From: Flavobacteriales bacterium
GTDB taxonomy: Bacteria > Bacteroidota > Bacteroidia > UBA10329
Assembly: GCA_021739695.1 (NCBI GenBank)
Contig: JAIPBM010000009.1
Span: forward strand, 62,001-126,000
Length of the DNA: 64,000 nt
Reading direction: 5' to 3'
Shown: positions 24,342 to 61,776 of the stretch, piece after piece
How positions within the stretch are numbered: position 1 is the stretch's first letter
How the letters are laid out: the number at the start of each line of letters is the position of its first letter
Position numbers and translations under genes: made by a program
Notes under the pieces: generated by a model
What the model was told of the DNA's origin: nothing
Database searches by the model: none
The model's input: only the letters and a program-made list of their open reading frames with translations

Positions 24342-27300
24342 ATGAAAAACCTCCTTACCATCTTACTTGTTTTACTTGGCAGCACCGCGTTTGCACAAGA
24401 CGGAACATTGGATACCACCTTTGATGCAGGAACTGGGTCTTTGTATCCGCCTTCTTCCACTAACGCAGTGGAGTGCGCTGAACTACAGGCTGATGGCAAA
24501 GTCATCGTTGGGGGCTATTTTTCCTCCTTTAATGGAAAAGCCGTAAGGCACGTGGCGCGCCTAAATGATGATGGTGCTGTTGATACCACTTTCTATGCAT
24601 CTATTGCCGGTGTTAATACTGTTTATGATGTTGCCATTCAAGCCGATGGATATGTTATTGTGGGAGGAACTTTCAGCTCTATTGAAGGAAGGTCGAGGAA
24701 CGGAATAGCCCGACTCAAAATAGATGGCTCGTTGGATACCCTCTTTAATCCGGGATCAGGGTTCAATGGGCCAGTGAGATCAATGGCAATACAGTCTGAT
24801 GGTAAGATCATTGTCGGTGGAGCTTTCACTTCGTTTAATGGAATACCTGTTGGGAACATTGCACGTCTTAATGCAAATGGTTCGTTAGATGCACCTTTTG
24901 TCACGGGCACAGGCTTCGGTTCTTACATCCGAACCATCACTTTACAAGCTGATGGTAAGATCATTTGCGGAGGGATCTTTACGTCCTATAACGGAACAGC
25001 TGCACCTAAAATAGCCCGACTGAACACGGATGGTTCGTTTGATTCAAGTTTTGATGTTGGTACCGGATTTCAAAGTGGCACAGGTAGTCAAATAACAGCA
25101 ACGGCTTTGCAGTCGGATGGCAAGATCATCGTTATCGGAGGGTTTTCCATTTTCAATGGAGTAAATGCAGGGAGTATCGTCCGACTGAATACAGATGGAT
25201 CGGTAGATGCCTCGTTCAACGTAGGGGGGATAGGAAGCGCTGGAAGTAATCTTCAAATTGCCGCCATACAAGCAGATGATAAGATCATTATTGGAGGCAT
25301 GCTTTCCTCCTATAATGGAACGCCTGTAAGCAGAATAGCCCGCCTTTATGCAGACGGTAGCTTAGACGCCACCTTTGATCAGGGAACAGGATTTAATAGC
25401 CAAACTTTTGCCCTTTGTGTACAGCCTGACGGCAAGATCATTGCTGCGGGTTCTTTTTCATCCTACAATGGCGTGTCTAAGAATGCCGTTGTGAGGTTGA
25501 ATGTGGAAAATAGCTTCGTTACCCGTTGGGATCTATCGATCGGTGGCGCAGCTACTGATCTTAGCTTTTTCGCCACCACAAGCGGAACGGTAAGTTATTT
25601 TTGGGAAGAGCTTTCTCCTGGCAATGCCACAGGAAGCGGCACCTTCAGTGGTGATGCTACGATAAGTGGTCTACCTTCTGGTTCCATTATCAGATTGAGC
25701 ATTGCTCCAGCAAATCTCAACAGTTTCTCCCTTAATAATCTGGCATCCCATCGCAACCGTTTGGTAGATGTGGAACAATGGGGCGACATGCAATGGACGT
25801 CTGCACAGTCGGCATTCTATGGTTGTGCTAATTTGCAGATATCTGCCACAGATGTGCCCGACCTTTCTGCAGTTACCGACATGAGCCAGATGTTCCGTGG
25901 CTGCACAATACTTAACGGACCAGCCAATATCAGCACTTGGAATACAGCTTCTGTAACAACCATGAGAGGCCTATTCTATTCAGCAGCGGCATTTAACCAG
26001 CCTATTGGTAGCTGGAATATGGCTTCAGTTACAGACCTATATGAAATGTTCAGAAGCGCTACGGCCTTCAATCAAGCCATTGGGACGTGGAATACAGTTT
26101 CGGCCGAAACCATGACCAGGATGTTCTGGGGTGCTACCTCTTTCAACCAACCAATTGGAACTTGGACCACCACCAATGTGACCGATATGGGAAATATGTT
26201 CAGAGCCGCCACATCCTTCAATCAGAATATTGGTGGATGGAATACGGCTTCTGTCACTGGCATGGCATCTATGCTAAACGGTGCCGCGGCATTCAACCAG
26301 AATATCGGAAGTTGGAACACGGCTTCGGTTATCAGCATGGCGTCCATGTTTAATGCGGCTGCATCATTCAACCAGAACATCGGTTCGTGGACATTGAATT
26401 CTGCTGTAAACATGAGCGCTATGCTCGATAACTGCGGCATGGATTGCGAAAGTTATTCCAATACGCTCAACGGCTGGAGGACCAACAATCCAAGCTTGAC
26501 CTATCGTGTTCTTGGGGCCTCGGGGTTGCAATATGGTACCAATGCGCTGTCAACACACTTGGCATTGGTTTTCTCACTGGGCTGGAGCATAAGCGGTGAT
26601 GCCTCCATTTATTCTGACTGTCGAAGGTTCATTACCCGCTGGGACCTTTCCATTGGTGGAGACGTTTCTGAAATTGCCTTTGCGGTGGAAACAAGCGGCA
26701 CGGTAAACTATTCGTGGGAGGAAGTATCGCCCGGCATGGCTTCAGGTGCTGGAAGCTCCACTGGCACCACAGCCACCATCAGCGGACTTCCAGCAGGAGC
26801 CATCATCAGCTTGCGTATTGAACCTGCAAATTTCAATCGAATCAATATAAACAATGGCACCCACAAGAACAGACTGGTAGATGTGGAGCAGTGGGGGGGC
26901 GTAGCATGGACTTCGATGGAGAATGCTTTTTATGGCTGTTCCAATCTGCAGATATCTTCAACGGATGTTCCCAATTTATCTGGGGTAACCAACATGGACT
27001 ATATGTTTACAAGGTGCACGATCCTTAACGGGCCATCCAATATTAACAGTTGGAATACCAGTACTGTCAATTCTATGGAGCGCACGTTTTATTTTGCTTC
27101 TGCATTCAATCAAAACATTGGCAATTGGAATACCGCAGCAGTAACCAGCATGTTGTGGATGTTCACTCGGGCAGAGGCATTCAATCAAGATATTGGAGGT
27201 TGGAATACTGGCTTGGTTACAAACATGCAGTATATGTTCCGTTACGCTATTTCATTCAATCAGAATATCAGTGGTTGGAACACGGCCAATGTATCGGACG

Positions 27301-30300
27301 TGCTGGCCATGTTTGAAAATGCCACTGCATTCAACCAACCGATAGGAAGTTGGGACATCGGCAATATGGTTAGTATGACCAGCATGTTTAGGAATGCTAC
27401 CGCCTTCAATCAGGATTTGAGTGGCTGGAACACAGCAGGCGTAATTTCTTTTGGTACTATGTTCGAAGGCGCTAGTTCTTTCAACCAGAACCTCGGCTCA
27501 TGGATATTGAATCCCAGCGTCAGTGCCTCCATGGGCGATATGCTTACTGACTGTGGCATGGACTGCGAAAACTATTCTAAAACGCTCATAGGTTGGCTGG
27601 CCAATAATCCAACGGTGACAGGTCGCTACCTCAGTAGCACCAACCTCGAATACGGCACCAACGCAGTGGCAGCCCGCCATGCGCTCACAACCACGCAGGG
27701 CTGGACCATAACTGGGGATGTTGCCAGTGGTGTGTCATGCGATCCAGATCTGTTCGTTACCAAGTGGGATCTTTCCATTGGTGGAGATGTTTCTGAAATT
27801 GCATTTGATGTGGAAACAAGCGGCACGGTAAACTATTCATGGCACGAATTATCTCCGGGCTCAGCCTCGGGTATTGGAAGCTTTAGTGGCACCACAGCCA
27901 CCATCAGCGGACTTCCATCAGGAGCCATCATCAGAGTGCATATTGAAGCTGCAAATTTCAATCGAATCAATATAAACAATGGCACCCACAAGAACAGACT
28001 GGTAGATGTGGAGCAGTGGGGGGGCGTAGCATGGACTTCGATGGAGAATGCTTTTAATGGCTGTTCCAACCTCGACATCACCGCCACCGATGTGCCGGAT
28101 CTATCTGCTCTTACTCAGATGTCATCCATGTTCGAGCAATGCACTGCCCTCAATGCTCCTAGTAACATAGCTACTTGGAATACCGCTGATGTTACCCACA
28201 TGAATTCGATGTTCAACGGGGCAAGTTCATTCAATCAGGATATAAGTGGATGGAATACAGCTGACGTCATATTTTTGAATGGAATGTTCTTCAATGCGAG
28301 TTCGTTCAATCAGAACTTAGGTTCATGGATATTAACAACCGATGTGAGTATGGCAGATATGCTGAGCAATTGCGGCATGAACTGCGAAAACTATTCGACC
28401 ACGCTTATTGGTTGGCAAGCAAATAATCCAACGGTAACAGGTCGCAGCCTTGGCGCAGCGCTTCTGACCTACAACAGTGATGGAGAAGTGGCACGCGATG
28501 CGCTTGTCTCATCACAAGGCTGGGAATTTGAAGATGGTGGACTAGGCTACACAACGGGAACCGATGTTCAAACAGCCTGCGGAAGCTACACGTGGATGGA
28601 TGGAAACGAATACACGGCAAGCAATAACACCGCCACTTATAGCATAGTTGGAGGTTCGTCCACTGGCTGCGACAGTATTATAACCCTGAACTTGACCATC
28701 AGTCTAGGAACCACGTGGTATGCCGATACGGATTCGGATGGTTTTGGAGACGCCCTCAGCACGCAGGTTGCTTGCACGCAGCCTTCTGGCTACGTGGCTA
28801 ATGACACAGACTGTGACGACACGAACTGGCTCCTGTGGTCATCCTGCTACCAATGGACTGGCGCAGTGAGCACAGATTGGAACGATGGCGGCAACTGGAG
28901 TGGAGGAAACGTGCCTACTGCCGCAGACGATATCACCATCACATCCATACCTAGCAGTCAACCTCACGTAACCAGCACTGCAGCATCCCCTGCTGCTTGC
29001 GCCAACCTGATCATTAATGGTCTTGCCTTACTAACAGTTGATGCCGGCAAGGCACTCACCGTCAATGGCAATATGGTACTGACTGGAGACATCCTTGTGA
29101 AAGCGGATGAGACCGGAATCGGTTCGCTCATCACCTACGGAAACAAAGCGGGCAACGGCTTCTGCAAAATGGAGCAATACCTCACAGGTTCAAACAATGC
29201 TGGAACACCCAATGGCGTGTTCTATTACGTCACCCCGCCTGTTACTTCGGCACAGGCATCTGTTTACGACCTGGCCAGCGGCAACAAACTATGGGCCGCT
29301 AATGAAAGCTCGCAAAGCTACCCGCAGATTACGGATGGGTTCAACGTGCTTGATGCTGGAAGAGGATACGTGGTTCGCATGGGCGATATAAGCACCATTA
29401 CCTATAGCGCAAACGCCTTCAATACAGGCGATGTAGAGATAGGAGCACTTACGCGCACTGGAACAACAGCAACCAACCGTGGCTACAATCTGGTGGGCAA
29501 TCCGTATCCAAGTTCGGTTAACTGGAGCAATGTGGATACCACCAATCTCTACGGCTCCATTTGGTACAGAACGCATACGTCTAACGATGTAATGACATAC
29601 GACACCTACAATGCCGTTGCGGATCTGGGAACTTCAAACAATTTCAACGGAACAAATGCCACAGGTATCATACCACCTGCACAGGCATTTTGGGTTCGGG
29701 TGAAAAATGACAACAGCACCGCTTCGGTCAACTTTACCAACGCTATGCGAAGCCACGGAACACTTTCTGGCATCTACAAGCAAGCGGCAGAAGATGGAAC
29801 AGTGAGAATGACCTTGAGTGATGGAACAACTTCGGATGAGACCATTCTTCTTTTCAATGAGAATGCTTCGGATGATTTTGATGCCTACGACAGCCATAAA
29901 TTCTGGGCAACGGCAAGTTTGTCGCAGATATACATGAACGAAGCGGTAGACACCCTTGCCATTAACGGACTTTATAGCACGCAGACGAACCCGATTGTTG
30001 AATTGGGAGTGAAACTACCATCAGCCGGAAGCTACACCCTCAACGCAACGAGCATCACGTTAAATGAGGATGTGTACTTGGAAGACCGAATGCTCGGTAT
30101 CTTCCAAGACTTGAATCTGGAACCAAGCTATGCGTTCAGTTCATCTGTTGGTGGAAATATCCCAACGCGCTTTGCACTTCACTTCGGCATGGCCATTACT
30201 GGAATTGAAGATGGAGTAGAAGCAAACTCACACGTGTACACATCCAGTGGAAGCCAGTTGAACGTCATCCTATCTGAGAACATCGAGAACGGAAACGTAC

Positions 30301-30449
30301 AGGTGTTAGATATGGCAGGGCGAATCATTCTCACTGCGAACCTCACTTCATCGAGAACCACCTTGGATATGAATGCCTCAACAGGTGTTTATCTCGTGCG
30401 AGTGGAGACTGAAAAAGGAACATATACACATCGCGTAATACTTAACTAG
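24342..30449 (+). CDS. Giant mosaic surface protein: delta-60 repeats, BspA-like DUF285 repeats, T9SS tail
   Basis: A 2035-residue secreted protein with a signal peptide ending FAQ at 19. Residues ~20-385 hold about eight delta-60-type repeats (DGKIIVGGxFTSFNG..IARLN.DGSLD). Three modules then follow, starting near 391, 762 and 1137, each opening F.T.WDLSIGG. Each contains BspA-like DUF285 repeats of the form FNQ.IG.WNTA.V..M..MF..A. Residues ~1459-1480 are a MopE-like YADTDSDGFGD motif, then a NWSGGNVPTAADDI segment, a beta-rich region, and a T9SS type A tail ending in VYLVRVETEKGTYTHRVILN. It is probably a surface adhesin or scaffold. Modules 2 and 3 share a 106-base identical block containing G7 runs. 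Confidence 0.9.
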   Translation: MKNLLTILLVLLGSTAFAQDGTLDTTFDAGTGSLYPPSSTNAVECAELQADGKVIVGGYFSSFNGKAVRHVARLNDDGAVDTTFYASIAGVNTVYDVAIQADGYVIVGGTFSSIEGRSRNGIARLKIDGSLDTLFNPGSGFNGPVRSMAIQSDGKIIVGGAFTSFNGIPVGNIARLNANGSLDAPFVTGTGFGSYIRTITLQADGKIICGGIFTSYNGTAAPKIARLNTDGSFDSSFDVGTGFQSGTGSQITATALQSDGKIIVIGGFSIFNGVNAGSIVRLNTDGSVDASFNVGGIGSAGSNLQIAAIQADDKIIIGGMLSSYNGTPVSRIARLYADGSLDATFDQGTGFNSQTFALCVQPDGKIIAAGSFSSYNGVSKNAVVRLNVENSFVTRWDLSIGGAATDLSFFATTSGTVSYFWEELSPGNATGSGTFSGDATISGLPSGSIIRLSIAPANLNSFSLNNLASHRNRLVDVEQWGDMQWTSAQSAFYGCANLQISATDVPDLSAVTDMSQMFRGCTILNGPANISTWNTASVTTMRGLFYSAAAFNQPIGSWNMASVTDLYEMFRSATAFNQAIGTWNTVSAETMTRMFWGATSFNQPIGTWTTTNVTDMGNMFRAATSFNQNIGGWNTASVTGMASMLNGAAAFNQNIGSWNTASVISMASMFNAAASFNQNIGSWTLNSAVNMSAMLDNCGMDCESYSNTLNGWRTNNPSLTYRVLGASGLQYGTNALSTHLALVFSLGWSISGDASIYSDCRRFITRWDLSIGGDVSEIAFAVETSGTVNYSWEEVSPGMASGAGSSTGTTATISGLPAGAIISLRIEPANFNRININNGTHKNRLVDVEQWGGVAWTSMENAFYGCSNLQISSTDVPNLSGVTNMDYMFTRCTILNGPSNINSWNTSTVNSMERTFYFASAFNQNIGNWNTAAVTSMLWMFTRAEAFNQDIGGWNTGLVTNMQYMFRYAISFNQNISGWNTANVSDVLAMFENATAFNQPIGSWDIGNMVSMTSMFRNATAFNQDLSGWNTAGVISFGTMFEGASSFNQNLGSWILNPSVSASMGDMLTDCGMDCENYSKTLIGWLANNPTVTGRYLSSTNLEYGTNAVAARHALTTTQGWTITGDVASGVSCDPDLFVTKWDLSIGGDVSEIAFDVETSGTVNYSWHELSPGSASGIGSFSGTTATISGLPSGAIIRVHIEAANFNRININNGTHKNRLVDVEQWGGVAWTSMENAFNGCSNLDITATDVPDLSALTQMSSMFEQCTALNAPSNIATWNTADVTHMNSMFNGASSFNQDISGWNTADVIFLNGMFFNASSFNQNLGSWILTTDVSMADMLSNCGMNCENYSTTLIGWQANNPTVTGRSLGAALLTYNSDGEVARDALVSSQGWEFEDGGLGYTTGTDVQTACGSYTWMDGNEYTASNNTATYSIVGGSSTGCDSIITLNLTISLGTTWYADTDSDGFGDALSTQVACTQPSGYVANDTDCDDTNWLLWSSCYQWTGAVSTDWNDGGNWSGGNVPTAADDITITSIPSSQPHVTSTAASPAACANLIINGLALLTVDAGKALTVNGNMVLTGDILVKADETGIGSLITYGNKAGNGFCKMEQYLTGSNNAGTPNGVFYYVTPPVTSAQASVYDLASGNKLWAANESSQSYPQITDGFNVLDAGRGYVVRMGDISTITYSANAFNTGDVEIGALTRTGTTATNRGYNLVGNPYPSSVNWSNVDTTNLYGSIWYRTHTSNDVMTYDTYNAVADLGTSNNFNGTNATGIIPPAQAFWVRVKNDNSTASVNFTNAMRSHGTLSGIYKQAAEDGTVRMTLSDGTTSDETILLFNENASDDFDAYDSHKFWATASLSQIYMNEAVDTLAINGLYSTQTNPIVELGVKLPSAGSYTLNATSITLNEDVYLEDRMLGIFQDLNLEPSYAFSSSVGGNIPTRFALHFGMAITGIEDGVEANSHVYTSSGSQLNVILSENIENGNVQVLDMAGRIILTANLTSSRTTLDMNASTGVYLVRVETEKGTYTHRVILN
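26825..26930 (+). repeat. Intragenic direct repeat, copy 1 (of 106 bp)
   Basis: This block appears identical to 27950-28055 and encodes the start of DUF285 modules 2 and 3. It includes a run of seven G (26893-26899). The identity suggests recent duplication or gene conversion. Confidence 0.85.
27950..28055 (+). repeat. Intragenic direct repeat, copy 2 (of 106 bp)
   Basis: Second copy of the block at 26825-26930, 1125 bases downstream and in the same frame, with the same G7 run at 28018-28024. Confidence 0.85.
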
Positions 30450-31074: not shown

Positions 31075-31410
31075 TAGATCAACGCGGCAGGTCACTGTAA
31101 CGCTGCGGAAGGTCTCTAGATCAATGCGGCAAGTCGCTGGAACGATGCGGAAGGTCTCTAGATCAATGCGGCAAGTCGCTGGAACGATGCAGAAGGTCTC
31201 TAGATCAACGCGGCAGGTCGCTGGAACGATGCGGAAGGTCTCTAGATCAACGCGGCAGGTCGCTGGAATGATGCGAAAGGTCCGTAGATCAATGCGGCAG
31301 GTCGCTGGAACGATGCGGAAGGTCCGTGGAACGATGCGCAAGGTCTCTAGATTAACGCGGAAAGTGAGTGAACCGATGTATTGAGTCTGTAAATCAATGT
31401 GAATTAGGCT
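31075..31410. repeat. Tandem array with 21-nt period (42-nt higher-order unit)
   Basis: Sixteen consecutive 21-base units without spacers. Two unit types alternate: one begins TAGATCAA and contains GCGGCAGGTCGC, the other begins TGGAACGATGCGGAAGGT and ends CTC or CCG. Together they give a 42-base higher-order repeat. The last three to four units are more diverged. Both strands stay open in one frame because 21 is a multiple of three, which produces spurious repeat ORFs (minus strand motif IVPATCRIDLETFR). I consider it non-coding. Confidence 0.85.
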
Positions 31411-31546: not shown

Positions 31547-33490
31547 TTATTCTGCAGGAGTTACTTGTTGCATTTCAGACTCTTTCTCTTTCGCTGCGTC
31601 AAGGTCAATCTCTTGATTGTTGAATTTAGCCGTTACTGCAGGGTTTTTCACACCCAACGAAATTACTTGCTCAAGTAATGCCTCCGCTTCTGCAAACGTC
31701 TTGAAAGAGCCAATGGTGTACACTTTCAATCCACCCGTTGTCGATTTCATTTCCACACCATGCTGGGCAATCAGTTTAGAAAGCTTATCAAGCTCAATAC
31801 GCAAGCGATATTCTTTCAGTTCTACACCATAGCTCAACACATCCACATCTTCAATGTCAAGCGACACTCCTTTAGGCTGTTGATTTCTTGCTTTGTCAAA
31901 GCCTACAACTCCAAGGTCAACACCCACATCTGGAATAGCACCTTCGTTCACACCAAATGCTTCGTCAATCCCGCTGCTGATCAGCTCATTCTGTTTTTTC
32001 TCAGCAGCTTCAAAGTTGTCGTAAGAACCAAGTGTGAAAACAGAGATTGAATCATTCACCTTTGTTTCAACCAACCCTTGCATCTTGGCCAAACGCATTT
32101 TGATCTGCGTTGGGATATCATAGTTTGTATATGTTCCAACGTGAACCGTGTATTTCGGATCAATCGATTTTTGCGAATAGAGCCATTCTTCGTTTACGTT
32201 CTTTCTCAACAAAGAAGTCGTATCTGAACCATAGCTCTTGTAAATATCTTGATAGCTCACACCAACACCATTGGCATCCACAATTCTACCAGCAGGCGTT
32301 TTAAGTTCCTTGTCACGGTAATCTGGAATTCCATCGGCATCCTCATCAGCAGGACAACCATGTTCATCTACTACCAATCCTTTAGGGGTTCCTCCGCAAC
32401 GGTCGTTGAAATCTGAAACACCATCACCATCAGAATCTTCGTCTACAACGGCACCGAAATCAGCATAGTCAGCTCCGGCCATGTCAACCTTTGGCGCTTT
32501 CTTTTTAAATGGGTCGAATTTGAAGAACACAGAAAGTGATGTATAAAGGAATCCATCATTCGAGAAGAATCCTTTGCTTCCTCCACTTACATTGTCCATC
32601 TTGTCAGTTGTGGTGAAATAATAGAACGAACCAAGGCGAATAGCAAATTTTCTCGAAGCGTTGAAATCGAAACCTGCTCCAACTGGAATGCTGACAGCTG
32701 CTATAGGATATTCACTTACGCGTGTTTCATATTTATAGTCTCGGCTTAGAACTTTAATGTCATCCGTGGCTGGGCTGCTTTGATTCACATTTCTGATCAG
32801 ACCATCGTCCCAGTAGTAATATACATTGCCACTACCATCTTGAAGATCGCTGTAGACACTGTAATCTGAATAGCTCACCCCAACCGATACGAAAGGAGTG
32901 ATACCGACCGGATTAAGGATCACGTTCTTGAAGTTGTAAACCAAACTTGCTCCAACCGTAAAAACCTTCGACTCAAAGTTCTTTGGGGTATCATGCAACG
33001 ATTGATTTTGATCCCAGCTCAATTTGGCAAGCAATACATCCACATTCAATTCCAAGTAATTGGTCACGTTGGCGCCAACACCGAAATTCCATCCAGGATG
33101 ACTTCCAATACGGTGAACTGTAGTGCCAGGATTGTCTCGCAAGTCTCCGAAATAGTTCATCAGGCCTACTCCGCCATGCACATTGGCCATAAAATGATAA
33201 GGCACTTTCGCTTTTGGCCCTTTGCTCTTTGCTTCTATTTTTTGCTCTGGTTTCTCTTGAACTTTAGGAGCAGCAGCTTTCTCTGGCGTAGGTTGAACTA
33301 CTGGTTCTTTTTTAGTCTCAGTAGCTTTTTCTTTGGCTACTTTTTCCTTCTTGACTTTAGCAGGTTTTTCCTTCTTAGGTTCTGCTACTTTTTCTTTAGG
33401 AGCCTCCTTGTTTTCTCCTTGGGTATTGTCTTGGCCGAAGGCCTGAAGAGTCAGGAAGCTGATGGTCAGTATAAGTATGGTGTACCTCAT
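31547..33490 (-). CDS. Outer-membrane beta-barrel protein with TSP3-like repeats and two SPOR-like domains (paralogue 5)
   Basis: A 647-residue protein with a signal peptide ending QAFGQ. Residues ~25-90 are a Lys/Pro/Glu-rich linker (KEKPAKVKKEKVAKEK). A ~240-residue beta-strand-rich barrel follows (FMANVHGGVGLMNYFGDLRDN). Then come thrombospondin-type-3-like calcium repeats DEDSDGDGVSDFNDRC and DEDADGIPDYRD. Two C-terminal SPOR-like repeats follow (YTVHVGTYTNY.. and VYTIGSFKTFAEAEALL..). SPOR domains bind denuded peptidoglycan glycan. It lacks the EF-hand tail of its four paralogues. The OmpA peptidoglycan domain that usually follows TSP3 repeats in Bacteroidota is replaced by SPOR. Confidence 0.85.
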   Translation of the reverse strand: MRYTILILTISFLTLQAFGQDNTQGENKEAPKEKVAEPKKEKPAKVKKEKVAKEKATETKKEPVVQPTPEKAAAPKVQEKPEQKIEAKSKGPKAKVPYHFMANVHGGVGLMNYFGDLRDNPGTTVHRIGSHPGWNFGVGANVTNYLELNVDVLLAKLSWDQNQSLHDTPKNFESKVFTVGASLVYNFKNVILNPVGITPFVSVGVSYSDYSVYSDLQDGSGNVYYYWDDGLIRNVNQSSPATDDIKVLSRDYKYETRVSEYPIAAVSIPVGAGFDFNASRKFAIRLGSFYYFTTTDKMDNVSGGSKGFFSNDGFLYTSLSVFFKFDPFKKKAPKVDMAGADYADFGAVVDEDSDGDGVSDFNDRCGGTPKGLVVDEHGCPADEDADGIPDYRDKELKTPAGRIVDANGVGVSYQDIYKSYGSDTTSLLRKNVNEEWLYSQKSIDPKYTVHVGTYTNYDIPTQIKMRLAKMQGLVETKVNDSISVFTLGSYDNFEAAEKKQNELISSGIDEAFGVNEGAIPDVGVDLGVVGFDKARNQQPKGVSLDIEDVDVLSYGVELKEYRLRIELDKLSKLIAQHGVEMKSTTGGLKVYTIGSFKTFAEAEALLEQVISLGVKNPAVTAKFNNQEIDLDAAKEKESEMQQVTPAE

Positions 33491-33529: not shown

Positions 33530-35371
33530 TTAATCTTCGAAATATAGATCGATCAGCTCGTTGATCATTTCTTGTGTGTAGTTAGACTTCCCTTGTTGGA
33601 AAAGAGCAATCATCTTGTTCACTTCGTCAGGCGTCAATTTTCCGTCATTGTTAAAATCAACTTCTTTGAATTTGTTGGCCAAGTAACGCTGCGTGTCAGA
33701 CAATCCATCTTTCTTATAGTTTTCCAGAATATTCAATGTGCCATCAATATAAACAGCCATCGTTCCTCCAAAGTTGATCGCTTTCGCATCTTCCATGTAC
33801 TCATGGTAAAAATCGATCAGGTTATACAGTTGCAAAATGCTCAATGGAGAGACTCCTTCTAGCACGTCTTCAATTACACGCATAACCTCATCTGCAGTTA
33901 TAAGACCGTCTGCATTGTAGTCCGCATCGCTGAATTGTGGCGGAATAGAAGCTGTGCTGTTCTCTTCCTTAGTTATAGCTAATGGCTGTTTTGGTGAGAT
34001 TACTTTTTCGGCCACCAACTGCTTATATACACGGTCGATGCTAGAATAAACCTCGTCAACAGAACTAGCTTGCTCAGGCGATTTACTGAAAATCTCGTTG
34101 GTTATCTCCTCAAACAACTTATCGTATTCACTTTCATTCTCAACACGGTTTTGAATATCAAGCATCATGATGGCCAGCTTGGTCGAATCTTCCGCTGTTA
34201 GACTGGCTTTTCTTGAAAGTATTCCACTTGGATAGATCTGATGCATGCGAGCTCGCTCAGTAGCAACTGAATCGGCATAAGCGGCCAACATCATCTCATC
34301 CGTTAAGGTCACACCTTCTGTGTTAACCACGTTGCCCAAAGCAGTGGCCTCTTCCTTATCACGGTAATCGGCAATCACATCAACATCTGTGTCTATTGGG
34401 CATCCAAACTCGTCTACTTTCACGCCACTAGGTGTTTTGGCACAACGATCATCAAAATCGTTCACACCGTCTTCATCAGAATCTTCCAAAAGCATGGCAT
34501 AGAAGTCGACATCTTCATAGAATTTGTCTTTCATGCTTTTCGTGTAATCACGTTTTACGCCAATGCTGTAGCTAACTGAAGCAGAGGTATAAAGGAACAT
34601 GTCGTTACGGGAATTCCCCTTACGAAGACTTTCACCTTTGTCAGATACATCATCGATCAGGTCGGTAAACGTATAATAGAAACTCGCTCCGATTCGTGCA
34701 CTTATTCGTCTTCCCATTTTAAAGTCTACGCCTGCGGATACTGGCAATGAAAAGGTGTATTGATTGTATTTTCCTAACCCGTCTTGGTTCTCATCTCTGA
34801 GGTCAGACTCATAAGTATAATCGCGTTGCAATGGCACAGCTTGTTCACTATTAGGGTCAGTTTGTGCCAAGCTCATGATGGAGCCGTCAGACCAATAATA
34901 ATATCTGTTACCGTTAGCATCAAACAGATCAGACTTGCTATCGAAGTTTATGAACGATACTCCAAATCCAACATAAGGCTGAACAATGCCTGGTTTCTTA
35001 TACAGGTGATTGAAGTTGTAGCTAACACTTGCTGTACCAATGAATGTTTCTGATTTGAAGTTCAGATTGCGCGTTGTACTTCGTTCGTTGATAGTGATGT
35101 TGCCATAGGTAGCGTCTAAATTGATATCGAAGTATCTTGATAGGTTGGCACTGGCCAATACGGAAACGCCATATGTGCTGGTAAACATATGCTGATAATT
35201 GTTGTCGTTCACATCTCCGAAGAAAGTGAAAGCCCCAGCACCAATGCCAATTCGAGGGGCGAGTAGGGCATCACGCCCTCTGTTATCAACATAGTAATTA
35301 TCGTTCAACTGCCCAAAGCAGTTTGCACTAAATAGAACGATAATGGAAAGGAGTTGTAAAGCTTTATTCAT
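33530..35371 (-). CDS. Outer-membrane beta-barrel protein with TSP3-like repeats and two EF-hand modules (paralogue 4)
   Basis: A 613-residue protein using the ATG at 35371 (MNKALQLLSIIVLFSANCFGQ, a proper signal peptide); 22 extra upstream residues are not credible. The barrel (residues ~25-290) contains the family motifs GAGAFTFFGDVNDN, YVGFGVSFINFDSKSDLFDANGNRYYYWSDG and RDYTYESDLRD. TSP3-like repeats follow (DSDEDGVNDFDDRC, DTDVDVIADYRD). A helical region leads to two EF-hand modules, loop DYNADGLITADE followed by LIDFYHEY, and loop DFNNDGKLTPDE followed by LIDLYFED. Loop positions 1, 3, 5 and 12 are all acidic or Asn, as needed for calcium. Confidence 0.85.
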   Translation of the reverse strand: MNKALQLLSIIVLFSANCFGQLNDNYYVDNRGRDALLAPRIGIGAGAFTFFGDVNDNNYQHMFTSTYGVSVLASANLSRYFDINLDATYGNITINERSTTRNLNFKSETFIGTASVSYNFNHLYKKPGIVQPYVGFGVSFINFDSKSDLFDANGNRYYYWSDGSIMSLAQTDPNSEQAVPLQRDYTYESDLRDENQDGLGKYNQYTFSLPVSAGVDFKMGRRISARIGASFYYTFTDLIDDVSDKGESLRKGNSRNDMFLYTSASVSYSIGVKRDYTKSMKDKFYEDVDFYAMLLEDSDEDGVNDFDDRCAKTPSGVKVDEFGCPIDTDVDVIADYRDKEEATALGNVVNTEGVTLTDEMMLAAYADSVATERARMHQIYPSGILSRKASLTAEDSTKLAIMMLDIQNRVENESEYDKLFEEITNEIFSKSPEQASSVDEVYSSIDRVYKQLVAEKVISPKQPLAITKEENSTASIPPQFSDADYNADGLITADEVMRVIEDVLEGVSPLSILQLYNLIDFYHEYMEDAKAINFGGTMAVYIDGTLNILENYKKDGLSDTQRYLANKFKEVDFNNDGKLTPDEVNKMIALFQQGKSNYTQEMINELIDLYFED

Positions 35372-35411
35372 GGGCGTTGCCAAGCAAATTCTGCTAAAAA
35401 TAACCAAAGAA

Positions 35412-36854
35412 TCATTCCTGCTCAAAATAATAGTCAATCAGTGTTTGAATGTCTTCAACAGACCGAACTGCCTCACCTTCAAAAAGCAGATCAATGAAGT
35501 ACAGCACCTCATCAGGAGCTATCATCCCGTTTTGGTTCAAATCAGCCCAATGGAAATCACCCGACTCTTTTGGTGCTGCATTCTTGATATCCTCCATGGT
35601 ATGGTTGACTACTCCGGGTTCTTTGGTGGTAATCACTTCAGAAGTCTGCTTTTCTTGAACAGGAAGAGTGGTTTCTTCTTTGGAAGTTGAACTTGTTTCA
35701 GTGCTATTTATGTCTGCGATTTCTGTATTGATGATCTCTTCAGCTTCAACTGTTGAATTGTCTCCCGGAGTGGTCTCAACTGTTTCAGTTTCCTGATTAA
35801 GTTCGTTGCCGGATGTGTTTCCAGTTGTTGTTTCTACTTCTACACTTTCCTGCTTAGTTGACGAGATATTTTTTTCTGGAACTACTTCATTTTCCAACGC
35901 AGCATTTTTCTTAGTAGCAACATAGTCCGATTCGGCTGGTGCTTTCTCAACAGGCTTGTCGTTTGGTGAGTCTGCAGCAACATCCTCAACAAAAGCGGGC
36001 GTTTTTGTTTTGGAAGATGGTTTCGTCTGACCTAAGAACACGCTTAGCCCAACGGATGCAAAAAGATGGTTGTCGTTTCCAGACTTTCCTTGCCTATCGC
36101 CAACTCCTTTATCACTTACGTTATCCAGCATGTCGCTAAAGTTTAAAGCATAGCAGAAAGCTGCATTGACCCCAATATTCTTCGTTATTTGAAATCGAGC
36201 GCCAGCGTTAAGCGGCAAACTGAACGCTAACTGCGAATATTTCTTCAATCCGTCAAGATTTGCATCACGCAGATCAGATTCGTAATTAAAATCACGAGAG
36301 AGGGGAGTGGCTTCGCTAGCATCAACAGTTCCTTCAGCTTCAGCATTCACGCTTCCATCAGACCAATACTGATAAACAACGCCATGAGAATCTTTTAAAT
36401 CTCCTTTAGATCGGAAGGAAAGCAAACCCACTCCGAATCCGACATATGGACGAACAAGTTGTCGTCCGTCTGGCCGAGGTTTTAGCAGTGGAAAGAAATT
36501 GTACTCAACGTTCAATCGTTGACTGAAAAGGGAAGTTTTATAATTGAGGTTGGTCAGATTCCGTTGTTCTTCCCCATACAATGTTCCTGCATATAACTCC
36601 AACGAGACGCTGATGAAGTTCGCAATGCGTTGCGTAATGGTCAACTGATACCCGAATTGACGAAATGGAGATGGTCCGGATTTGCTAAGCGCAATGTCAG
36701 ACATGGTGTGGTTAAAACCGAAATTGACACTGATAGTTGGTAAGGGAATCATCTCGTTATCCTTAGCCAGTTCGGTAACGCTTGCCTGCTGAGCAACAAG
36801 TCCTTTACAGGAAAGAATCAAGTAGAAAGTAACCGCATGTTTTATCGACCTCAT
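35412..36854 (-). CDS. Outer-membrane beta-barrel protein with EF-hand tail (paralogue 3)
   Basis: A 480-residue protein with signal peptide ending GLVAQ. The barrel shows VNFGFNHTMSDIA, YVGFGVGLLSFRSKGDLKDSHGVVYQYWSDGS and RDFNYESDLRDANLDG, shared with the neighbouring paralogues. It has no TSP3 repeats; instead a long Glu/Thr/Ser-rich disordered linker (about 285-415). The C-terminus is a single EF-hand loop DLNQNGMIAPDE followed by a FIDLLFEGE helix and LIDYYFEQE. It lies 41 bases upstream of paralogue 4 on the same strand. The function is unknown; an outer-membrane anchor displaying a calcium-dependent docking tail is inferred. Confidence 0.82.
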   Translation of the reverse strand: MRSIKHAVTFYLILSCKGLVAQQASVTELAKDNEMIPLPTISVNFGFNHTMSDIALSKSGPSPFRQFGYQLTITQRIANFISVSLELYAGTLYGEEQRNLTNLNYKTSLFSQRLNVEYNFFPLLKPRPDGRQLVRPYVGFGVGLLSFRSKGDLKDSHGVVYQYWSDGSVNAEAEGTVDASEATPLSRDFNYESDLRDANLDGLKKYSQLAFSLPLNAGARFQITKNIGVNAAFCYALNFSDMLDNVSDKGVGDRQGKSGNDNHLFASVGLSVFLGQTKPSSKTKTPAFVEDVAADSPNDKPVEKAPAESDYVATKKNAALENEVVPEKNISSTKQESVEVETTTGNTSGNELNQETETVETTPGDNSTVEAEEIINTEIADINSTETSSTSKEETTLPVQEKQTSEVITTKEPGVVNHTMEDIKNAAPKESGDFHWADLNQNGMIAPDEVLYFIDLLFEGEAVRSVEDIQTLIDYYFEQE

Positions 36855-36886
36855 CCCGATTAATATGGAATTGTAAGGTAAAAAAT

Positions 36887-36917
36887 AACCCAGGTCTTTC
36901 GGCCTGGGTTAGTTTGT
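36887..36917 (-). terminator. Terminator between the cohesin-like gene and paralogue 3
   Basis: AACCCAGG and CCTGGGTT pair around a TCTTTCGG loop. On the minus strand the stem is followed by ATTTTTTACC, so it probably ends transcription of the gene that stops at 36939. The cluster is thus split into at least two units. Confidence 0.75.
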
Positions 36918-36938: not shown

Positions 36939-38066
36939 TTATTGTCCAGCAATATCAAGCGCTTCTTTCACGTGAATACGAACGCCATCGTTGTAAGCAG
37001 TCACAAAAGGACCTTCAACGTTGTTGCTGTCACGCAATTCATTGCTGAAAGTCTTCGCTGGTCGGTAAGAACCGAATTCTCCTACAACATATTTGAACAT
37101 GCCATCATGCTCTTCGATCACGATTGTTTCGTTGATGCCATATTTAGATTGGTAAATGGCTGGGTCTACACGGTTAGGACCCGCAGCTACTTGAACACGG
37201 AAAACCAGTCCTGGTTTCGATTTCATCATAGCATCGTTGTAATTAGGTGCCTCTTCAGCCACTGCAACAGGTTCGGCTTTAGCTGCTTCTGCTTCTTTGC
37301 GTGCATTCTCAGCGTCTTTAGCAGCTTTTGCGTCTTTCGCTTTTCTAGCTTCTTCGTCTTTCTTTGCCTTAGCCGCAGCAGCTTCTGCTTCAGCAGCAGA
37401 ATTATCAACTACCTCTACAGCAGCTTCCACAACTTCTTCAGCCGCTTCCACAACTTCTTCAGCCGCTTCCACAACTTCGGTAGTTTCAACCGTTACCCGA
37501 TCGTTTTCTCTTGTAACTTCAGGCTCAGCAGCTTTTTCTGGTTCTGGAGCGGCTTCCTCTCGGGCAGCGTTAGCAGCCTCTTCCTTGGCTTTTTGATCCG
37601 CCAATATTTTATCCATTGCTGCTTTTTGCACGGCTTCTGCTTGATCTGCCGTCACAGTGATAATATCCTTTGGGATTACAAATTTCTCTGTTTCGTTATC
37701 TTTAATGTAGGCGAATGTTCCGTCAATTATCTGATTTCCACTCAATGAAGCATCAACAGAAACTTTATAAGATACTTTGAAATCGTTGTTCGGAAGCGCC
37801 ATCCAAAGGAACTTCACCTTTTGCTCTTTGAAGGAGAAAGTAGCGTTAGCAGATTCTCCTGCTTCTGCTGTAAATCCAGGAGGCAATTGCTGTTGAAGCT
37901 TCGCGAAACCAGAAACGTCACCTTTAGTGATATTAAGTTCCATGGTAAAACTACCACCAGGTTCTACGGTAGCAGGTAGTTTCGTTGAAACAGATACCTG
38001 TGCCATTAGGCTGCCTGAAATCAGGATAAGTGCGAATGCAGTGATTAGTGTCGATCTCTTGATCAT
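36939..38066 (-). CDS. Secreted protein with cohesin-like N-domain, Ala/Glu linker and C-terminal SPOR domain
   Basis: A 375-residue protein with signal peptide ending SLMAQ. Residues ~22-140 are a beta-sandwich resembling cohesin/BatD-type domains: KLPATVEPGGSFTMELNIT, then FAKLQQQLPPGFTAE, VKFLWMALP, and a FAYIKDNE strand. Residues ~145-280 form an Ala/Glu/Lys-rich helical linker with a threefold VVEAAEE repeat (21-base DNA repeat). The C-terminal ~85 residues look like a SPOR domain (VFRVQVAAGPNRVDPAIY ... YRPAKTFSNEL). It would bind peptidoglycan at the C-terminus and a partner at the N-terminus. Its position among EF-hand-tailed barrels suggests those are the partners, which is inference. 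Confidence 0.75.
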   Translation of the reverse strand: MIKRSTLITAFALILISGSLMAQVSVSTKLPATVEPGGSFTMELNITKGDVSGFAKLQQQLPPGFTAEAGESANATFSFKEQKVKFLWMALPNNDFKVSYKVSVDASLSGNQIIDGTFAYIKDNETEKFVIPKDIITVTADQAEAVQKAAMDKILADQKAKEEAANAAREEAAPEPEKAAEPEVTRENDRVTVETTEVVEAAEEVVEAAEEVVEAAVEVVDNSAAEAEAAAAKAKKDEEARKAKDAKAAKDAENARKEAEAAKAEPVAVAEEAPNYNDAMMKSKPGLVFRVQVAAGPNRVDPAIYQSKYGINETIVIEEHDGMFKYVVGEFGSYRPAKTFSNELRDSNNVEGPFVTAYNDGVRIHVKEALDIAGQ

Positions 38067-38113: not shown

Positions 38114-39520
38114 TTATTGATCAAAAAAGTAGTCAATAAGGTCGTTGATATAGGAAGCTTTCACATCAAGTTCTCCATCAAAGAATTTATCAATAGCGCC
38201 ATAAACTTCCCCTACTGATATAGTTCCGTTTCGGTCTTCATCAACCAACGCAAACGGATAATCGCCTGTTGAGGTTTCATTTGATGTGGATAGAGATTTA
38301 TTATTTCGATCATTCTCACTTCCGTAAACTTCAAGCATGTCAGGGTATACTTCGAACATTCTAGCACGAATGGTGGCTACCGTATCGATATCTCCAGAAA
38401 GCATCTCATCAGTAAGTCCAACGCCTTTCCCGTCAACATTCAGATTTTTATCAGTGTTCGGTTCGTCATCTCCGTAATCGACAACTCCATCTTCGTCTGT
38501 ATCCAAAGGACAGCCAATTTCATCTACTGATGTTCCAGATGGTGTTTCTGGACAAACATCTTTTTCATCAGAAATACCATCTCCATCAGAATCTCCGTCC
38601 AACGAGAAGAATTCCATGTCATCATATTTTGATTTCTTTTCCTTTTTAGGACTAAAGAAGTCAAAATGGTACGACACTGAGGTGAATAGGAACATGTCGT
38701 TTGCCTTGTTCCCAACACGTCCAGCAACTCCATCTCGAGTATAATTATCAATTAGATCAGTAAACGCATATGAAAAGGTCGAGGTCAATCTGATAGCAGA
38801 ACGAGGAGAAACCTTGAAGTGCAATCCGAATGTAAATGGCAGTGTCAGGGCAAATTGCTTATAAGTACCCAAGCTATCAAGATTAGCTTTGCGAAGGTCA
38901 GTTTCATATACATAGTCTGAACGAAGAACAACAGCATCTGGATCTGAACCATTAGCTGGCTGAGCTAAACTTCTTATGGTACCATCACTCCAATAGTTGT
39001 AGGCTACACCATTTTCGTCTTTCAGGTCTCCCTTCGCATCAAAGTTGACTGCACCAACCCCTACAGAAATGAAAGGGTTAAGGAATCGCTTTGGTGGTAG
39101 GATGCCAGCAAAGTTGTAAGTAGCATTCAAGTTGAAGGAGACGATATCCGTACTGAAGTTGAGATTACGTTCAACTGAACGTTCTCTTGCAGTCATTTTG
39201 CCATAAGCAACATCAAACCGAACACCGAATGATGGACTGAAATTCTTGATGACACTTGCAGAAAAGCCGTAGTTATTGATCAGTGGATTAGTCCGCTCGT
39301 TGTTGTTTACTTCTCCAAAGTAATTGAAGATACCAGCACCTAAACCTATAATAGGTTTATAGATGGTGTTCTCTTCATTCCAAGCTTTGCGTGCCGACTT
39401 AATGGCATCTCTCGATGCCTGAGCGTCTGCTTTAGCTGAATCGGTGGCAGCACCGTCCTGAGCGAATACGTTGAAACTGAATCCGGTAATAACCAGAATT
39501 GCGAGCAGCCTTTGGAACAT
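38114..39520 (-). CDS. Outer-membrane beta-barrel protein with TSP3-like repeats and EF-hand tail (paralogue 2)
   Basis: A 468-residue protein; the start at 39520 (MFQRLLAILVITGFSFNVFAQ) gives a clean signal peptide and lies 7 bases after paralogue 1. The barrel carries GLGAGIFNYFGEVNNNE, FISVGVGAVNFDAKGDLKDENGVAYNYWSDG and RSDYVYETDLRKANLD. TSP3-like repeats read DGDSDGDGISDEKDVC and DTDEDGVVDYGD. The C-terminus is one EF-hand loop DEDRNGTISVGE, an AIDKFFDGELD helix and LIDYFFDQ. It is co-oriented and nearly contiguous with paralogue 1, so the two are probably one transcript. Confidence 0.85.
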   Translation of the reverse strand: MFQRLLAILVITGFSFNVFAQDGAATDSAKADAQASRDAIKSARKAWNEENTIYKPIIGLGAGIFNYFGEVNNNERTNPLINNYGFSASVIKNFSPSFGVRFDVAYGKMTARERSVERNLNFSTDIVSFNLNATYNFAGILPPKRFLNPFISVGVGAVNFDAKGDLKDENGVAYNYWSDGTIRSLAQPANGSDPDAVVLRSDYVYETDLRKANLDSLGTYKQFALTLPFTFGLHFKVSPRSAIRLTSTFSYAFTDLIDNYTRDGVAGRVGNKANDMFLFTSVSYHFDFFSPKKEKKSKYDDMEFFSLDGDSDGDGISDEKDVCPETPSGTSVDEIGCPLDTDEDGVVDYGDDEPNTDKNLNVDGKGVGLTDEMLSGDIDTVATIRARMFEVYPDMLEVYGSENDRNNKSLSTSNETSTGDYPFALVDEDRNGTISVGEVYGAIDKFFDGELDVKASYINDLIDYFFDQ

Positions 39521-39527
39521 CACTTGA

Positions 39528-40949
39528 CTATTGGTCGAAGAAGAAATCGATAAGGTCATGCAGTTTTGCAGCAGAGAAATCGAGTTCACCTTCAAAGAAA
39601 GCATCAATGGCCCAAGTTATCTCGTCAGCAGAGATGAAGCCATCACCATCACGATCAACCACAACGAAAGATCCAAGTTCTTTTGTTTCTTGCTCTTCTT
39701 GCGGTTTTTCGAAAGAATAGTATGAACCTACTTTTGCCCTTTCCATAGTTGGATAAGCTTCGTAAATGATGTCGTGAGCCACTGAATTAGTATCAGGCAA
39801 TACGATGAAATCAGGGTCGATTGTCATACCATTTGCATCAACCATGGCAGAGTCTGCAGATGTTTCTTGATCTCTATAATCAGGAACACCATCATGGTCA
39901 GAATCCAACGGACAACCAGACTTGTCTACCGCTGCTCCAGCAGGCGTATTGGCACAAAGGTCTTCTACGTTGATAACGCCATCTCCATCCTCATCTGCAT
40001 TATCCAGTGCAAGGAAGTCGAAGCTATCAAACTGTGAAGAGTCTGGTTGTTGTTTTTTAGCAGCGATGTGATATGCAAATCCAACAGAGGTATATAGGAA
40101 GTGATCTGTTTGTTTTCCGCTTTTGTATCCATCCAACTGATCGCTCAAGGTCCAGTAGTATGTAGCGCTGATGTCAGCATGGAACTTGCGTCCGAATTTG
40201 TATCGAAGACCAAGACCAAAAGGAAACGCAACCGAATTGTGTTGCAATTTGCTTCCGTCAAATGATTGCTTCAAGGTTGTCTCGTACTTGTTGTCGATGT
40301 CCAAAGCAACAGCGCTGCCCAATTCGCCTTGTACTTTCGGACGGTCCATAATGCGACCATCATCCCAATAGAAGTATTGGTTTCCATCCGCATCCAAAAG
40401 GTCTGTCTTCTGTGTCATCTTAAGAATGTATCCAACCCCACCGAATAGGTAAGGAGAGAAGTGAGATGAACGGCTGATGAAAAGATTGTTATCGAGATAC
40501 ACGTTTACTTTAAAGTCGATGTTCATCAACTCTGTTTGAACGTTTCTGTTTCCAAGATTAAGATTGTCTGTGGTGGAAGTTATTGGTGTTCTTTCCTTTT
40601 CTCCTAACCAGCCATAAAGAAAGTTCAACGAGAAACCCACAGCACTGAAAGTTCTGTGCTCAATTCCAGCGTTAATTCCCCATTTCCAATTAGTAGTGTT
40701 GTAAAGGTTGGTGCCACTGGAAATATCATCTCCAAGCAGCGACATGTTACCACCTCCAACATAGATATACGGCATCTTATTGTCGTAATAAGGAGGTCGA
40801 GGTTTCTTTTCCTTTTCTTCCTTTGGCTCTTGTTCGGTCTTTTCCTTCTTCTCTTTTTTAGCCTTGCCTTCTTCGGCAGGTGCATCTTGGGCGTAGGTGC
40901 CAAAAGAAATTGTTAGAATAAGAAGTGAGAGTATAAGTCTAAGCTTCAT
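39528..40949 (-). CDS. Outer-membrane beta-barrel protein with TSP3-like repeats and EF-hand tail (paralogue 1)
   Basis: A 473-residue protein with a signal peptide ending GTYAQ, then a Lys/Glu-rich linker (KAKKEKKEKTEQEPKEEKEK). The barrel contains PYIYVGGGNMSLLGDDI, GGVGYILKMTQKTDLLDADGNQYFYWDDG and KYETTLKQSFDGSK. TSP3-like repeats are ADEDGDGVINVEDLC and DSDHDGVPDYRD. The C-terminal EF-hand loop DRDGDGFISADE is followed by AIDAFFEGELD and LIDFFFDQ, the clearest example of the shared tail. It is the first gene of the five-paralogue cluster, after a 115-base gap from the LOG gene end. Confidence 0.85.
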   Translation of the reverse strand: MKLRLILSLLILTISFGTYAQDAPAEEGKAKKEKKEKTEQEPKEEKEKKPRPPYYDNKMPYIYVGGGNMSLLGDDISSGTNLYNTTNWKWGINAGIEHRTFSAVGFSLNFLYGWLGEKERTPITSTTDNLNLGNRNVQTELMNIDFKVNVYLDNNLFISRSSHFSPYLFGGVGYILKMTQKTDLLDADGNQYFYWDDGRIMDRPKVQGELGSAVALDIDNKYETTLKQSFDGSKLQHNSVAFPFGLGLRYKFGRKFHADISATYYWTLSDQLDGYKSGKQTDHFLYTSVGFAYHIAAKKQQPDSSQFDSFDFLALDNADEDGDGVINVEDLCANTPAGAAVDKSGCPLDSDHDGVPDYRDQETSADSAMVDANGMTIDPDFIVLPDTNSVAHDIIYEAYPTMERAKVGSYYSFEKPQEEQETKELGSFVVVDRDGDGFISADEITWAIDAFFEGELDFSAAKLHDLIDFFFDQ

Positions 40950-57443: not shown

Positions 57444-57467
57444 GAATATTGAATTGAAGCACTAAAC

Positions 57468-57660
57468 TCGAAATAAAAAAGCACGAAAGAGCTAAAGCAC
57501 GAAATCCGAAATAAAAAAGCACGAAAGAGCTAAAGCACGAAATCCGAAATAAAAAGCACGAAAGAGCTAAAGCACGAAATCCGAAATAAAAAAGCACGAA
57601 AGAGCTAAAGCACGAAAGAACTAAAGCACGAAATCCGAAATAAAAAAGCACGAAACCGTT
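57468..57660. repeat. Tandem array of a ~38-bp AT-rich unit
   Basis: About five head-to-tail copies of a unit that opens GAAATAAAAAAGCACGAAAG and continues AGCTAAAGCACGAAATCC. One copy lacks an A in the A6 run, and one has an inserted partial unit. It ends GAAACCGTTTCGAATTTCAG. It lies upstream of ridA. Related words occur at 55236-55310 and in 57661-57735. Confidence 0.9.
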
Positions 57661-61545: not shown

Positions 61546-61776
61546 AACGATCTTAGGAAGAGACCGCCATAGCTTAGGAAACCTCTGCCCAAGCTATGCC
61601 GAAGGCTGCCATAGCTTAGGAAGAGACCGCCATAGCTTAGGAAACCATTGCCCAAGCTATGCCGATGGCTGCCATAGCTTAGGAAGAGACCGCCATAGCT
61701 TAGGAAACCTCTGCCCAAGCTATGCCGATGGCTGCCATAGCTTAGAAAGACATGGAACAAGCTTAGGAAATGATGA
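61546..61776. repeat. Tandem array of eleven 21-nt units with 63-nt higher order
   Basis: Eleven contiguous 21-base units. Two of every three begin CCATAGCTTAGGAA; the third begins CCCAAGCTATGCCGA, which is the inverted form of the same word (AGCTTAGG/AGCTATGG). The order A-B-inverted-A repeats every 63 bases. The last two units are diverged. No spacers separate the units. Frame stays open on the minus strand (FLSYGG-like repeats), but this is a by-product of the 21-base length. Confidence 0.85.

Follow-up and report, generated by a model that had tools for sequence, protein, structure and literature searches.

A beta-sandwich–SPOR protein encoded beside EF-hand-tailed PorG-like barrels is a candidate adaptor between outer membrane and peptidoglycan in Bacteroidota

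Inside a cluster of barrel genes from a Flavobacteriales bacterium we identified a 375-residue protein that joins an N-terminal beta-sandwich to a C-terminal SPOR-like domain, and its relatives across Bacteroidota mostly lie next to genes whose products end in a short EF-hand tail. We give about even chances to the reading that outer membrane and peptidoglycan are tied together by a two-part tether whose periplasmic adaptor is this protein, with the EF tail docking on the sandwich and the SPOR domain holding the wall. This proposal is built on domain architecture, gene adjacency, co-occurrence and conservation of calcium ligands, all of which are direct observations. PorG-like barrels in the outer membrane would end in one calcium-loaded EF-hand, mostly after a TSP3 linker; this EF-hand would dock on the beta-sandwich of the adaptor in the manner of a dockerin on a cohesin, and the adaptor SPOR domain would in turn grip peptidoglycan. 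Outer membrane–peptidoglycan attachment is normally built into one protein, such as OmpA, Pal or Lpp. In the open-licence literature we found no published description of a sandwich–SPOR/EF-tail module. All coordinates without a locus name refer to the 64,000-nucleotide stretch analysed, termed here the window.

The gene occupies 36939..38066 on the minus strand, and the plus-strand translation of the same interval contains stops. It is present in nine of nine genomes of the genus, with 57-79% identity among full-length copies, and this conservation indicates a real gene and not a chance open reading frame. Residues 1-22 (38001..38066, minus) look like a Sec signal peptide when the sequence is read by eye, and both A22 and the following Q23 are invariant in an alignment of eight copies from the genus. 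The same alignment holds two conserved blocks, at about residues 23-141 and at 284-375, separated by an Ala/Glu/Lys-rich linker of variable length (residues 142-283; 37218..37643, minus) that contains a 21-bp tandem repeat at 37414-37478. Just 3′ of the stop codon lies a hairpin followed by TTTTTT (36886..36911, minus) that resembles an intrinsic terminator, a type of site whose count in the region is near the mean for shuffled sequence. As a single query against Pfam, NCBIfam and PDB sequences the protein matched nothing useful, and profiles were therefore needed; these were built from 36 named Bacteroidota loci retrieved in a collection scan. A separate scan of viral contigs found no relatives. 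The preliminary description of this DNA had drawn the protein as a beta-sandwich, an Ala/Glu linker and a SPOR domain, and that architecture stands, with the word "cohesin" retained as an analogy only.

The N-domain (residues 23-141; 37644..38000, minus) is predicted by AlphaFold as a nine-stranded sandwich with a pLDDT of 96.2 and a pTM of 0.89. A fold search had been suggested as the way to recognise a cohesin, and Foldseek did return cohesins at ranks 5 and 7 (2xdh, TM 0.63/0.57; 2w1n, TMq 0.69), but the best match was a CLIPPER/DUF11 domain (9ifr, E = 1.2e-5), followed by a pilin domain; the TM-scores to CLIPPER, the pilin domain and the cohesins are all moderate, at 0.5-0.7. At the level of sequence the cohesin assignment was not borne out: the window N-domain has no match to Pfam cohesin (PF00963) at E<=1, and the family is absent among the best 25 of 31 families matched by the 66 aligned sandwich members. 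Weak matches to Pfam DUF11 (PF01345) occur in 6 of these 66 (best 1.5e-4), the window copy itself having none, while 16 of the 66 match GBS104 Ig in Pfam and eight match isopeptide-fimbrial families in NCBIfam. On the structure ranking together with these weak profile matches, we name the N-domain a CnaA/CLIPPER- and cohesin-like sandwich and not a cohesin.

Four conserved polar strand residues, K56, S78, K85 and S119, all lie on strands 3, 5, 6 and 8 of the sandwich (p ~0.01-0.02, computed post hoc). In cohesins these strands bind dockerin, and the positions would agree with a docking face on the sandwich if the strands map one to one. An isopeptide bond was considered in view of the CLIPPER match. 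In CLIPPER domains, although not throughout the family, it links a Lys near domain position 8 to an Asn near position 99 (PMC12617251), and it was rejected for the N-domain because neither equivalent position is conserved in the sandwich alignment; the sole invariant sandwich Lys, K48, has no invariant Asn or Asp partner. These residues also bear on a quite improbable reading that takes the sandwich for a structural stalk domain of CLIPPER/CnaA type which, as in the stalks of adhesins, does no more than hold SPOR at a distance. The top-ranked CLIPPER structure, the weak DUF11, GBS104 Ig and isopeptide-fimbrial matches, and the arrangement of the family, where two tandem sandwiches are usual and one relative has four, are what a stalk would offer; the missing isopeptide Lys/Asn pair and the partnerless K48 speak against it, and a spacer does not require the co-occurrence with EF tails described below. 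The sandwich is joined to SPOR beside barrel genes, unlike the CLIPPER and CnaA-like domains of adhesin stalks.

The C-domain (residues 284-375; 36942..37217, minus) is SPOR-like, and here the preliminary description was right at the family level: 39 of 48 family copies match Pfam SPOR (PF05036, best 1.2e-9), and the C-domain profile matches the SPOR structure of CwlC (1x60, E = 6.1e-6). Ranked above 1x60 in the PDB search are two designed PPR proteins, placed there by summed repeat matches that are individually negligible. The window copy taken alone reaches 15.0 bits, below the SPOR cut-off of 21, and we expect that it would bind peptidoglycan as a member of this family.

The surrounding cluster consists of five PorG-like barrels, all on the minus strand, four of which carry C-terminal EF-hand tails. 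All five match NCBIfam T9SS_PorG (NF052316; 5.7e-9 to 1.1e-17) and in this resemble PorG of T9SS, but their scores of 36-65 bits are far under the curated cut-off of 130, and their long C-terminal modules set them apart. Two barrels, one of 497 residues as listed (38114..39607; T9SS_PorG 1.1e-17, below cut-off; TSP_3) and one of 473 residues (39528..40949), bear a TSP3 repeat and then an EF tail, at 38117..38263 (tail HMM 1.1e-19) and 39531..39677 (8.7e-22), respectively. A 480-residue barrel (35412..36854) has an acidic linker before its tail (35418..35567; 1.1e-21), and a barrel of 635 residues as listed (33530..35437; EF-hand_7 6.3e-8) has two tails, one internal (33797..33946; 8.5e-20) and one C-terminal (33533..33682; 1.2e-22). 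The fifth, of 647 residues (31547..33490), bears a TSP3 repeat and, at its C-terminus, a pair of SPOR-like domains (31913..32167, C-domain HMM 1.2e-22; 31577..31846, 1.8e-24) without an EF tail. The slot after the barrel is therefore filled by SPOR-like domains in one cluster member and by EF tails in the other four, and given its own SPOR-like domains the 647-residue barrel appears to do in cis the job that the others would do in trans. The listed TTG starts of 38114-39607 and 33530-35437 overlap the previous genes, and the true starts are likely internal ATGs followed by signal peptides as read from the sequence (MFQRLL... and MNKALQ...), that of the 497-residue barrel near 39520. Elsewhere in the same genome, on contig C22, an unlinked second PorG-like barrel of 786 residues (L097:1922-4279) unites TSP3 with a single SPOR-like domain and a pair of EF tails.

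The tail itself is 50 residues long and consists of a single canonical EF-hand with its E-helix and then one more helix, and it closes on a conserved FF-x-Q; its second half is helix only, so that there is one calcium loop in total. Loop ligands 1, 3, 5 and 12 are D, D/N, D/N and E in all 83 adaptor-adjacent tails. These tails had been called dockerin-like; they are indeed present on four of the five neighbouring barrels, but they are ordinary EF-hands, matching Pfam EF-hand families in 50-53 of 56 cases and Dockerin_1 (PF00404) in one of 56 (E = 0.001), and the two calcium-loop/F-helix repeats of a type I dockerin are not found in them. For both partners, then, "cohesin" and "dockerin" are analogies and not family memberships.

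In most loci of the family a gene for a tailed barrel is the immediate neighbour of the adaptor gene. After de-duplication we counted 87 locus pairs with a sandwich–SPOR gene beside an EF-tail gene, mostly separated by a few tens of bases, and 79 of the 87 have a tail that runs precisely to the C-terminus. No ORF was found that naturally fuses a sandwich to a tail. Both gene orders were seen, the tailed barrel preceding the adaptor in some lineages and following it in others, and this change of order is the better argument against mere inheritance of a gene block. Exceptions also exist: in G053, L036, L049, L063 and L196 the sandwich–SPOR gene is present although tails are missing from its surroundings or from the genome, L196 being an adaptor with no tail gene close by; around L192 the 5 kb read shows no neighbouring barrel, and in G342 the sandwich lies at the start of a contig. 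In the tail-bearing assembly G328, where no sandwich was seen, the only tail carriers are an OmpA-type protein and a fragment at a contig end. Most genomes of the G311 order also have an extra single-sandwich ORF of ~250-340 residues elsewhere, for example G326:C23:55079-55414.

Co-occurrence of the two gene types, set beforehand as a test, was strongly confirmed in samples where a full tail was defined as a match of E <= 1e-7 across at least 40 of 50 positions, with five weaker partial EF-hand matches set aside. Of 297 genomes sampled across the phylum, two had the sandwich and one of these, the window's own genome, also a full tail; none of the 295 sandwich-free genomes had one. In the order of G321, 58 of the 149 genomes have the sandwich, and a full tail was found in 34 of these 58 versus 0 of the 91 without it, an association whose p of 2.9e-18 is overstated since genomes within one order are not independent. 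The order of G311, with the sandwich in 34 and a full tail in 33 of 36 genomes (p = 0.16), varies too little to serve as a test by itself.

These counts bear on a different explanation, in which the EF-hand, stabilised by calcium, caps the periplasmic end of the barrel and binds no neighbour, the adjacency reflecting shared envelope structure. Such a cap would suit the plain EF-hand assignment of the tail in Pfam, its frequent position after calcium-type TSP3 repeats and the adaptors that occur without it; the lack of the tail in every sandwich-free genome of both the G321 order and the phylum sample, the retention of its FF-x-Q end, and its presence on unrelated proteins of the PorE-like kind where the genome has the sandwich, as expected of a docking module, all argue the other way, and we consider the cap unlikely. 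The last of these observations comes from G311, where three further tails lie on PorE-like proteins (L098:4278-15477) adjoining a gene that we take, from reading its sequence, to be PorP/SprF-like; the locus also holds a gliding-type C-terminal protein. Two of the tailed PorE-like proteins were scanned and both have OmpA domains, one with PD40 repeats in addition, which makes the tail a portable module and not a simple substitute for OmpA. The idea that the adaptor fills a role otherwise taken by OmpA domains is accordingly only partly right, the window's own genome having 15 OmpA-domain matches as well. The EF tail may mark T9SS-related outer-membrane parts. More tentatively than the tether itself, we suggest that the tail is an interchangeable calcium-dependent docking tag on PorG-like barrels and PorE-like proteins, binding a CnaA/cohesin-like sandwich with a SPOR anchor and widespread in uncultured Bacteroidota.

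Which adaptor domain the tail would touch was approached in three ways. A read-through pseudo-complex that links a tail to the sandwich encoded by the following gene, with the TAA stop of the tail gene read as Ser, is in frame in L043, L044, L045 and L048; folded, it gave high local confidence and a pTM of 0.63, about the value for an undocked tail, with the signal peptide sitting in the linker. Mirror-tree (distance-matrix) correlations of the tail with the adaptor domains, using the barrel as control, differ by gene order: in the tail-first group the tail tracks N1 (partial r 0.52, p = 0.001) and not SPOR (-0.27), whereas in the sandwich-first group the tail–SPOR partial r is 0.39 against 0.27 for tail–sandwich. 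Residue-level mutual information, averaged over the 20 top pairs, exceeds that of shuffled data for each of the three domains alike. Since these tests demonstrate linkage without singling out the contact domain, the coevolution results are not counted as support for docking. They do leave a little room for a complex of the same members wired otherwise, with the EF tail contacting the SPOR domain, or the SPOR-like domains of another barrel, and the sandwich binding something else. The sandwich-first correlations lean that way, as do the opposite median charges (+4 for the SPOR domain, -8 for the tails) and the retention of both sandwich and SPOR in tail-free lineages; the tail-first group, following N1 alone, and the fact that SPOR domains are otherwise glycan binders weigh against it, and we regard this arrangement as improbable.

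The docking of tail on sandwich that we favour invites comparison with several known systems. With the cohesin–dockerin pairs of cellulosomes it would share a nine-stranded sandwich in one protein, a short calcium-binding helix-loop-helix at the C-terminus of its counterpart, and a single scaffold copy facing several tailed proteins of different kinds. It differs in the profile matches of both partners, in the one calcium loop instead of two, and in its SPOR and outer-membrane context, and binding is here a prediction. CLIPPER (DUF11) and CnaA-like domains are closest in fold by Foldseek and likewise come in tandem copies. OprF is an outer-membrane barrel with a TSP3-type linker and a periplasmic C-terminal module, and the cluster barrels repeat this plan of OprF/OmpA-type barrels, but with the OmpA domain replaced by an EF-hand in four and by SPOR-like domains in one, so that wall binding by the tailed barrels would be in trans. 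The proposed role also resembles that of PorE, a periplasmic adaptor joining outer-membrane parts to peptidoglycan (PMC7192894, PMC12618676), whose relatives in L098 bear the same EF tails; PorE consists of an OmpA domain with TPR/WD40, unlike the SPOR and beta-sandwich of the 375-residue protein.

If the tether is real, its split design would allow a single wall anchor to serve many barrels, and attachment could become calcium-sensitive. Many uncharacterised barrel genes of uncultured Bacteroidota would gain a testable role, and the short C-terminal tail would serve as a sequence tag by which the system's cargo could be located in any genome. The cell envelope would then contain a cohesin–dockerin-like pairing that had arisen from other protein families.

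Next to the barrel cluster, a plus-strand gene (24342-30449) encodes a 2035-residue protein with a DUF5122 beta-propeller, DUF285 repeats and a T9SS Por_Secre_tail, a probable surface protein. Between it and the 647-residue barrel gene lies a 42-bp tandem repeat of ~6 copies with 92% identity (31075-31378), open on both strands because its period is a multiple of three. Two further tandem repeats were seen in the window, of 38 bp in 4.3 copies (57457-57617) and of 63 bp in 3.2 copies (61552-61750).
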